Origin: Planococcus rifietoensis
GTDB lineage: Bacteria; Bacillota; Bacilli; Bacillales_A; Planococcaceae
Direction: 5' to 3'
DNA: 64,000 nt
Assembly: GCF_001465795.2 (NCBI RefSeq)
Contig: NZ_CP013659.2
Coordinates: forward strand, 1,134,501-1,198,500
Within the stretch, counting starts at the first letter, position 1, and each line of letters begins with the position of its first letter. Made by a program: the position numbers and the translations under genes. Shown piece after piece: positions 21,703 through 48,503 of the stretch. The notes below the pieces were generated by a model that saw only the letters and a program-made list of their open reading frames with translations, did not search any database and was not told where the DNA came from.

Positions 21703-21732
21703 AAACGCCACTGCATTTGCGGTGGCGTTTTT
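21703..21732 (+). terminator. Terminator of the mreBCD-minCD operon
   Basis: AAACGCCAC pairs with GTGGCGTTT, followed by a T run, 14 bases after the minD stop. Confidence 0.85.
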
Positions 21733-21847
21733 GTGTTGAAAGATTTTTCTGAATGAAATGTAGGAGGAGGGACAAGGGGATACAAGACATTCTGCTGATA
21801 TGATATTACATTACGAATTCAAAAGAATAATAAAAATGAGTGTAATG

Positions 21848-21976
21848 GAGATTGCGCTTCAAGGGGCACGCTTGCCGAGGGGCGGGTGTTGAGCCAATGT
21901 GCCACAAAGAGCGCGGCACATTTGTCTCGCCAGCCCGCGCGGTCCCTCAGGCGTCGGCCCCTTTCCGCTTCATCTC
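21848..21976. repeat. 129-bp element with imperfect terminal inverted repeats
   Basis: The ends (starting GAGATTGCGC and finishing TTCATCTC) are inverted repeats matching at 14 of 20 positions. The inside is GC-rich and contains a hairpin, ATGTGCC/GGCACAT, at about 21896-21920. The surroundings are AT-rich. This is the layout of a small dispersed repeat or MITE-like element. No coding frame is convincing on either strand. Confidence 0.5.
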
Positions 21977-22048
21977 TACATTTAAAGTGGAAATTATTTT
22001 CATTTGTCACTGACATTAGCTTCGATAATTTGTTTCGGCGCTTGAAGG

Positions 22049-22215
22049 GGAAGTGATTCCCCCACTAGCCGGCAACTAACTATAGAAACAGATCTGCTTA
22101 AGCAAGCAAGAACCAATGAAATCTTTAAGCAGACCAGCGCCCAGGGTGAGCCGATGCCGTAAGACAGGTGTTCTTCCTGGCTTATGGCAAGAGGCCAACC
22201 CAAAGCAGGGAGGCG
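22049..22215 (+). ncRNA. Tandem structured element, copy A (167 nt, unknown RNA)
   Basis: The first of two direct repeats of equal length. It can fold as a 5' hairpin GGGGAA/TTCCCC (22047-22062 region) and a TCTGCTTAA/TTAAGCAGA hairpin. These are followed by one long nested stem: CGCC 22138-22141 with GGCG 22212-22215, GGGT 22144-22147 with ACCC 22198-22201, GCC with GGC, GCCGTAAG 22156-22163 with CTTATGGC 22181-22188, and CAGG 22165-22168 with CCTG 22176-22179. A G-U pair in the long stem would be an A-C mismatch on the opposite strand, which favours the plus strand. No known Rfam family is recognised and no poly-T terminator follows. Confidence 0.5.
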
Positions 22216-22292
22216 ATACTCCAAAATGAAATAAACTCGAACACGTGGAACCTCTCCACATATTTCATTCTTCAACTCACACAAACCGATAG

Positions 22293-22459
22293 GGAAGCGA
22301 TTTCCCCACTAGCCGGCAACTAACTATAGAAGCAAATCTGCTTCAGCAAGCAAGAACCAATGAAATCTCTAAGCCGACCAGCGCCCAGGGTGAGCCGATG
22401 CCGTAAGACAAGCGTTCTTCTTGGCTTATGGCAAGAGGCCAACCCCAAGCAGGGAGGCG
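22293..22459 (+). ncRNA. Tandem structured element, copy B (167 nt, unknown RNA)
   Basis: The second copy, 244 bases downstream of copy A, with about 11 substitutions and no indels over 167 bases. The same nested stem is preserved. At the inner helix the pair G22167-C22177 of copy A becomes A22411-T22421, a compensatory change that keeps base pairing. The 77-base spacer after copy A and the matching stretch after copy B are much less alike, and a short third partial start (GAAGCGAT) appears near 22536. The next genes are rplU-prp-rpmA, but a separate promoter and leader lie between. Confidence 0.5.
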
Positions 22460-22610
22460 CCCTTCCATAATGACGAAGATATGAAAACAAGCAACATTAC
22501 CACACACTTCATTCAATAATTCACAAGCCAGTAAAGAAGCGATATTTCATTACTTTAACCACAATCCCAAAAATGAAAAGCACACATCACCAACTCTTTT
22601 CAGTTCTCTG

Positions 22611-22640
22611 TTGACGCGGGTCTCTCCCGCATGATATTAT
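22611..22640 (+). promoter_or_regulatory. Promoter of rplU-prp-rpmA
   Basis: TTGACG and TATTAT are separated by 18 bases. The spacer itself contains a perfect GCGGG-tctct-CCCGC inverted repeat (22616-22630) that could be an operator. The start of transcription would fall just before the L21 leader. Confidence 0.75.
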
Positions 22641-22647
22641 TCTAATG

Positions 22648-22748
22648 TTATGTTTGTAGCGCACCCGTGCTACAACCGCTCGAACCAGGTCTTAAAGCAT
22701 CGCGAGATCACCTGGATAGGCGAGTCTTAGTCTAAGAGGAGGTGCAAG
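22648..22748 (+). promoter_or_regulatory. L21 ribosomal protein leader
   Basis: The 5' untranslated region has the L21-leader layout known upstream of rplU in Bacillales. It has a first hairpin TTGTAGC 22654-22660 with GCTACAA 22669-22675, then CGCTCGAACCAGGT, a GCGAGATCACCTGGATAGGCG block and the AGTCTTAG...CTAAGAGGAGG end that carries the SD. The family is thought to mediate autoregulation by L21. Confidence 0.85.
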
Positions 22749-44880: not shown

Positions 44881-44902
44881 TGATTTATTCTACTTATATA
44901 AT

Positions 44903-45170
44903 TTTGCTGAAGACGGAGAAAGTAATTGCTGGCATCGACTGAAAAGAGAGGGAAAGCCCTGGGCTGAAAGCTTTCCTGCAGAGAACTGCAATGAACAACA
45001 CTCCTGAGGTTCTTTACTGAACGGCGCAATGCGCTTATTAGGCTAAGACGGTTCCGGCCGTTATCCGGACAGAGAGGGCGCAGAAACTTGCGTCAACTAG
45101 GGTGGAACCGCGGAAGCTAATTTTTAGCTCTCGTCCCTTGCGCAAGCAAGGGGCGGGGGCTTTTTTGTAT
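44903..45170 (+). promoter_or_regulatory. T-box riboswitch leader of hisS-aspS
   Basis: Stem I is visible: GGAG 44915-44918 pairs with CTCC 45001-45004, and ATTGC pairs with GCAAT above the specifier loop. AGTA (44921) lies on the 5' side and GAAC-AAC-A (44993-45000) on the 3' side. The in-register specifier is therefore AAC (Asn), overlapping CAC (His) by one base. The T-box AGGGTGGAACCGCG is at 45099-45112. A terminator hairpin (CCCTTGC/GCAAGGG core) with a T run ends near 45166. Uncharged tRNA would stabilise the antiterminator. Confidence 0.93.
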
Positions 45171-48296: not shown

Positions 48297-48304
48297 TGTA
48301 GAGA

Positions 48305-48485
48305 GAATCCTGATGTGTTCGTTTTTAGCAATTCGATTTTGACCCAACATTTTGTCGTCGGGAGACCTACATATCGCCATGGCTAACATGCCTTAACGGG
48401 AAGTTATAAGTGGTGATGCGGTCACCCACCTGCTATAAGCGGGTTCAAACGATGCGCAACACAAAGGACGGCACGATCGGGATTC
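48305..48485 (+). ncRNA. ssrS: 6S RNA (ssrS/bsrA type)
   Basis: Located between aspS and tcdA, where B. subtilis has 6S-1 RNA. The closing stem is GAATCC 48305-48310 with GGATTC 48480-48485. Recognisable blocks include TCCTGATGTGTT at the 5' end, GGCTAACATGCCTTAACG, GGTGATGCGGTCACCC, GGTTCAAACGATG and CACGATCGGG. 6S RNA mimics an open promoter and binds the sigma-A holoenzyme to modulate growth-phase transcription. A terminator follows. Confidence 0.88.
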
Positions 48486-48503
48486 TTCCTACATAAGCAA
48501 TCC

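Follow-up and report, generated by a model that had tools for sequence, protein, structure and literature searches.

What is the pair of near-identical sequences that lies in tandem between minC-minD and rplU-prp in Planococcus rifietoensis? Our window, a 64,000-nt stretch of its chromosome, carries there two cores of 167 nt each (22049-22215 and 22293-22459), offset by 244 nt and differing by 11 mismatches without a gap. A sequence-only reading had seen in them a candidate unknown structured RNA, with transcription from the plus strand favored, and had offered twin small RNAs, a tandem ligand-binding RNA or a selected dispersed repeat as explanations. Our data favor the last of these. We judge it very probable that the pair belongs to a dispersed repeat whose RNA fold is under selection, and our preferred explanation of 22049-22461, which we consider likely, is a two-unit array of an interspersed repeat in which each unit has an RNA fold under RNA-level selection.

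Direct comparison confirms the length, offset and number of differences of the cores as that reading had given them, together with its two further observations: the 77-nt stretches 3' of each core have diverged (33/77 mismatches, ungapped), and an inner pair, G22167-C22177 in copy 1, is replaced by A22411-T22421 in copy 2, a compensatory change. A separate repeat-finder run reports the pair as two 234-nt copies with 85% identity and a spacing of 244 nt. None of 200 shuffles folds as well as copy 1 (z -4.15), and the fold of copy 2 is weaker (z -2.40, with 2/200 shuffles equally good). The array is enclosed by a terminator-like inverted repeat 3' of minD (21703-21730, our own reading, absent from the terminator-scan list) and a promoter-like site ahead of rplU (22611-22640), so neither neighbor's transcript needs to span it. 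The latter is the sole site from the promoter scan of the region, whose two overlapping matches are no excess over the 1.3 expected by chance (sd 1.2). The claim that the pair lies alone is wrong, since the genome holds 40 such arrays, and this one has a hairpin leader on one side and an apparent decayed start of a third unit on the other (Table 1).

Table 1. Components of the minD-rplU array, in window positions; strand is given where assigned.
Feature	Positions	Strand	Remarks
GC-rich imperfect-palindrome leader, ~70 nt ahead of first unit	21847..21979		minus strand folds with z -4.82
Unit 1 core, sub-family A	22049..22218	+	nhmmer positions 1-170, 171.5 bits
Unit 1 5' GNRA-capped hairpin, GGAA-GUGA-UUCC	22049..22060	+	GNRA in 143/144 distinct copies
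Unit 1 conserved 3' domain, 27-pair interrupted stem	22129..22214	+	alignment A1 columns 11-102
Unit 1 spacer, more variable yet homologous between loci	22219..22292		
Unit 2 core	22293..22461	+	nhmmer positions 1-169, 170.0 bits
Unit 2 conserved 3' domain	22373..22458	+	alignment A1
Probable decayed third-unit start closing the array	22527..22556	+	by eye, without a profile match

Identity per 20-nt window is 0.82-0.85 at unit positions 81-160 against 0.45-0.68 from position 181 on. A CRISPR-like reading of constant spacers was dropped because the spacers are homologous between loci. At the end of some other arrays (L034, L054) the profile does detect a partial unit.

The fold itself is strongly supported and is preserved by compensatory change. 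We compared the 3' domain in two alignments. A1 is a plain sequence alignment of 59 of 67 non-redundant copies (three omitted for insertions or truncation, five by hand without a stated reason), and A2 holds 113 matches, of which 109 are distinct, from further Planococcus species and from outside the genus; being fitted to the model, it leans towards structure. The A2 rows come from 67 of the 72 loci L128-L199, of which four overlapped others and one belonged to the array clade; three of the 113 rows are opposite-strand echoes of the same site and are retained in all A2 counts. Double changes occur at 15 of the 27 pairs in A1, where 94.2% of cells are paired (at most 44.4% in slid controls) and the covariation score is 0.254 versus 0.133 shuffled, with 0/500 shuffles reaching any of five measures. 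In A2 they occur at 24/27 pairs, with a score of 0.438 versus 0.154 and again 0/500. Pairing is weak in the outer stem (84.5% of cells in A1; 74.5% and 71.5% in the outer two parts in A2). The sequence-only reading would have taken a lack of significant covariation among homologues as evidence against a structured RNA; measured against the shuffles, the covariation of the pairs is very strong. The folded shape, rather than the exact letters, is kept in relatives.

Single-stranded parts of the unit are conserved as well. The loop of the 5' hairpin in sub-family A is GCGA in 130, GUGA in 12 and GUAA in one of the 144 distinct copies, the lone non-GNRA loop being ACGA. The unpaired bases that stay conserved between genera are found chiefly in internal loops. 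The apical loop differs from genus to genus in both length and sequence, with some of its bases conserved within the array clade. A K-turn reading of the internal loop was dropped on inspection by eye. By parsimony, Watson-Crick pairs change to G-U more often than to A-C (41 vs 16 in A1, 63 vs 20 in A2, 104 vs 36 in sum). Unpaired columns lean the same way (102 vs 61, 176 vs 128 and 278 vs 189, respectively), which makes the strand signal weaker than the raw counts; the excess over them has a one-sided Fisher P of 0.13 in A1, 0.0017 in A2 and 0.0009 in both together. The plus-strand preference proposed from the two cores thus holds over both alignments together.

The repeat is abundant and dispersed, with ~80 unlinked copies in 40 arrays of 1 to 6 units in the P. 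rifietoensis genome (G000). A genome-wide BLAST search with 22030-22240 as query yields 82 matches at E <=10, fragments counted; a profile search of the fetched regions and the window gives 83 hits including fragments, in 36 clusters, and four extra clusters (8 hits) located beside hairpin leaders bring the total to 40 arrays. Successive unit starts are spaced 244-249 nt in 29/31 cases. Sub-family B, to which we assign L036, L038, L041, L043, L047, L048, L058, L059, L107, L108, L110 and L113 on inspection of the listed positions by eye, has the 3' domain in common with sub-family A; three of its arrays were measured and have a period of 216-219 nt. By a tally made in the same way, a GC-rich hairpin leader stands upstream of 30/40 arrays, including the one in the window. 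The 35 matches of a leader search in the genome amount to 33 leaders, 30 of them array-adjacent and three alone (L109, L111 and L112, without a downstream unit).

These ~80 unlinked copies rule out a locus-specific explanation. What remains of the sequence-only interpretation is the unknown structured RNA on the plus strand; a pair of sRNAs or a tandem ligand-binding RNA peculiar to this one place is unsupported, given that copies adjoin genes in every orientation. That reading had regarded many unlinked copies as evidence against it, and they do count against an RNA particular to the locus, not against a dispersed repeat. When genes are called roughly, as any open frame of at least 110 codons, the raw counts for the 40 arrays are 16 convergent, 14 co-directional sense, 8 co-directional antisense and 2 divergent, and the next downstream gene is on the opposite strand in 24/40. 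This spectrum, which lacks the constant same-direction position 5' of one gene class seen in leaders and riboswitches, argues against a 5' regulatory role. Convergent gaps are also where tolerated parasitic repeats collect. In the 12 minD-rplU regions compared by eye, the leaders differ in type from species to species and no conserved promoter is evident in them.

To follow the family further we built a covariance model, R1, from the 3' domain, and tightened the filters wherever a search covered more than 40 genomes. R1 matches all 46 genomes of the genus, with 2 to at least 88 copies (up to 88 candidates scored per genome), and G009 has 91 copies when 150 candidates are scored. Matches occur in at least 94/261 genomes of the order, in 5/19 genera that all belong to one family (up to 15 candidates scored per genome), and in at least 20/398 genomes of the class, all in the same family (up to 10 scored). 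Because limited candidates were scored, counts near those limits and the absence of a match are lower bounds. Copy number ranges from 1 in several genomes to 146 in one Sporosarcina-type genome (up to 150 candidates scored), and Sporosarcina-type genomes also arrange copies as inverted pairs. Among the matches listed (80 of at least 120), the named hosts are Planococcus, Planomicrobium, Sporosarcina, Filibacter and Paenisporosarcina, and in the genomes sampled the repeat is confined to the family of Planococcus and Sporosarcina. Given this range of copy number and the 167/261 order genomes without a match, few candidates being scored in each, the RNA is not needed in general. Phage cargo was rejected in limited searches (22030-22240 matches none of 50,697 phage records, and a strict exact pattern none of the viral contigs), as was a plasmid element: the sole such record, the 7-kb NZ_CP025126.1 (L076) of Planococcus sp. 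MB-3u-03, holds three units among chromosome-like genes and is probably a piece of chromosome. Records labelled Arthrobacter beigongshangensis REN13 (L282, L289, L303) match the family pattern exactly, and their label or assembly looks doubtful.

Individual arrays hold their places between species and change in unit number. The minD-rplU array is present, with 1-4 units, in 12/12 array-clade genomes fetched, and 18/18 other genus loci fetched have no unit in the ~1.6 kb upstream of rplU. Two more genomes with high-scoring copies, G068 and G069, lay outside this fetch. In many of the array-less species (L089-L106) the minD-rplU gap holds a NERD-like frame, recognized by eye, and short repeats, CCGCACCTCAAA or TTCTATGATCACTC. 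In the related species G021 an array lies at the same place and strand for 30/40, often with a different unit number, which indicates mostly old, fixed loci; two of the 31 G021 loci given (L217, L218) have no matching G000 array. Nine of the ten remaining arrays, all but L037a, were inspected in G021, with flanking blocks mostly 85-92% identical. The counterparts of L051 and L052 hold a unit interrupted in the apical loop, L047 and L048 leave weak remnants, an end remnant of L061 is visible by eye, and the places of L040, L043, L050 and L053 yielded no unit. Among lower-copy genomes of other genera, five (G189, G193, G195, G212, G213) share a place upstream of a VanZ-like gene, and three (G148, G165, G166) share another.

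Comparison of orthologous copies indicates how these arrays change. Copies within an array are closer to each other than to their orthologues in 55/76 cases, which points to exchange within arrays, and 29/76 are at least equally close to a copy at another locus, which indicates that older dispersal or conversion between loci also occurs. Over 28 orthologous loci, 52% of changed pairs are still paired; in 1000 runs of random substitution the figure is 34% and never exceeds 48%. Double changes that preserve pairing number 14, where random substitution gives 1.8 on average and 7 at most. Such paired changes could also travel together by gene conversion from one copy to another, which would mimic selection after fixation. 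The five loci with a single usable copy per side give small counts, with 2 single and 5 double changes kept and 5 broken.

Several other explanations have to be weighed against this evidence. We consider it unlikely that the family is a DNA-level parasitic repeat (MITE, BIME or BOX-like) whose palindrome would serve a transposase as single-stranded DNA, with no RNA function. Such a parasite would account for the many unlinked copies, their very uneven number between species, the surplus of convergent over divergent placements, the companion hairpin at most arrays and the inverted pairs in Sporosarcina-type genomes. It would not account for the G-U excess over unpaired columns (significant in both alignments together, not in A1 alone), the GNRA loops or the pairing kept between orthologous copies; nor did we see by eye a target-site duplication at the places of L050 and L053 in G021, which lacks these two arrays and whose flanks there have diverged. 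The leader hairpin is palindromic. A Y1 transposase is likewise not linked to the copies. The single Y1 match in G000 has no copy within 1.5 kb, no copy lies that close to any of the 10 Y1 matches fetched (6 of 8 genomes), and a Y1 match is absent from G208 (98 copies) and G254 (56 copies).

A selfish element propagated via its folded RNA, whether ribozyme, satellite-like or retro-type, with the fold selected for spread and not for any benefit to the host, would explain tandem arrays of near-constant period, a constrained fold and wide swings in copy number; the arrays held at the same places in related species and the absence of any Rfam ribozyme family above threshold make us doubt this reading more than the DNA parasite. 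Twin trans-acting sRNAs that base-pair with mRNAs are very improbable: an intergenic position, structure and a favored plus strand would suit them, but not so many copies, an apical loop that differs between genera, or conserved unpaired bases that lie mainly in internal loops. We give least credence of all to a cis-acting leader or tandem riboswitch of rplU. The array does sit 5' of rplU, but the promoter-like site and the L21 leader (22664-22737) both lie downstream of it, the 18 other genus loci fetched lack the unit, and copies elsewhere adjoin many other genes; we rejected this function on position and orientation.

For the preferred reading, a dispersed repeat with a selected fold, we propose the following course. 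The plus strand would be transcribed from a promoter of its own or by read-through from a neighbor. The mechanism that we favor, though we think this step by itself less likely than not, is that a host factor would recognize the folded domain through the conserved internal loops with their neighboring G-A mismatches, A-G mismatch and AAAGCG strand. Since the apical loop lacks conservation from genus to genus, we prefer internal-loop recognition to antisense pairing. The repeat would have spread in the past, often jointly with the hairpin leader, and would now occupy mostly fixed loci whose unit number shifts by unequal exchange. A bolder version, which we think improbable, makes the 3' domain a catalytic or protein-organizing RNA and has the arrays, at up to 40 loci, processed into unit-length RNAs of a new multi-copy class. 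If true, it would be a dosage-tunable bacterial counterpart of tandem satellite RNAs, with ~80 units here and up to 146 elsewhere.

The family appears in neither of the two sources on which we base its novelty, Rfam 15 and a limited literature search. Rfam 15 has no family above its gathering threshold at 22049-22461, in line with the sequence-only reading, which recognized no riboswitch, sRNA or T-box family there. The same is true of the units tested at 12 loci in other species and genera. The overlaps that it does report are far below threshold (chrB-a, 15.7 bits with a cut-off of 43.9; MIR7533, 26.7 bits with a cut-off of 230), and the L21 leader is its sole above-threshold match in the minD-rplU gap. 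Elsewhere in the window Rfam finds an ordinary T-box leader (44901-45141) and 6S RNA (48304-48487). Among the papers listed on repeats, RNAs and riboswitches of Planococcus, Planococcaceae and Sporosarcina, none describes such an element in its title or the opening of its abstract.

In kind, the family seems best compared with BOX, bcr or REP repeats. The bcr1-bcr18 repeats are reportedly the subject of a 2011 study by Kristoffersen. In the available part of the bcr account, these are intergenic repeats of the Bacillus cereus group with two predicted functional RNA elements, and 40-51% of copies were found transcribed (PMC3446304). The likeness lies in intergenic repeats of a Bacillales group; the difference, compared by description, is that the same part of that source does not mention fixed-period tandem arrays (PMC3446304). 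BOX of Streptococcus pneumoniae (boxA-boxBn-boxC) is described, in the part of its account at hand, as a modular interspersed repeat with a variable number of internal units, overrepresented between convergent genes, with predicted RNA folds and called currently dormant (PMC3049150). Our family resembles it in part, with a 5' module at three-quarters of arrays, a varying number of units and frequent placement between convergent genes. Compared by description with what that part of the account gives, it differs in a unit of ~247 nt, an RNA domain that covaries across genera and another host group. We found no constant 3' module, as the downstream sides share little and some arrays close with a partial unit.

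REP elements, which occur as BIMEs and with RAYT proteins, are according to the available excerpt palindromes of 20-40 bp at high copy, single, paired or grouped (PMC3733652). The Planococcus unit, at 170-250 nt and with an interrupted 27-pair stem, differs from that description (PMC3733652). Nor does the ~170-nt unit end in a terminal GTAG tag: GGTAGCC occurs in many Sporosarcina-type copies, within the stem, and is absent from the Planococcus rows shown. With no Y1 association, a RAYT-driven REP is unsupported. Bacillaceae-1 (Rfam RF01690) is, by the portion of its source at hand, an RNA of Bacillaceae (PMC2864571). It has 26 matches in G000, none within a unit when the places are matched by eye, and neither the structured unit nor the window's own leader matches it. 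Ten of the 26 lie in hairpin leaders, on the opposite strand, nine beside arrays and one at a lone leader (leaders L032, L037, L038, L045, L048, L054, L108 and L113; lone L112). In this genome RF01690 may therefore be a mobile repeat in its own right.

Repeats scattered through bacterial genomes are commonly regarded as parasitic DNA that folds only incidentally. The present family makes a strong case that its RNA fold has been under selection, in many copies and at places held between species. It makes the question of whether intergenic repeat RNAs act directly testable in named, culturable species, which among the matches listed include Planococcus citreus and P. maritimus.

Two further observations concern the distribution and the integrity of the copies. 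Between 1.316 and 2.133 Mb, G000 has 817 kb without an array (P 0.001 for 40 random loci), a gap that may surround the replication terminus; G009 and G021 have a similar one, though these genomes share loci. Several copies (L036, L043, L044, L050, L055 and L057 in G000; L364, L365 and L219 in G021) carry an insert of ~90-110 nt at nearly the same point in the apical loop. By eye the inserts look alike and contain a hairpin, which would fit a second repeat that targets the apical hairpin of these copies.
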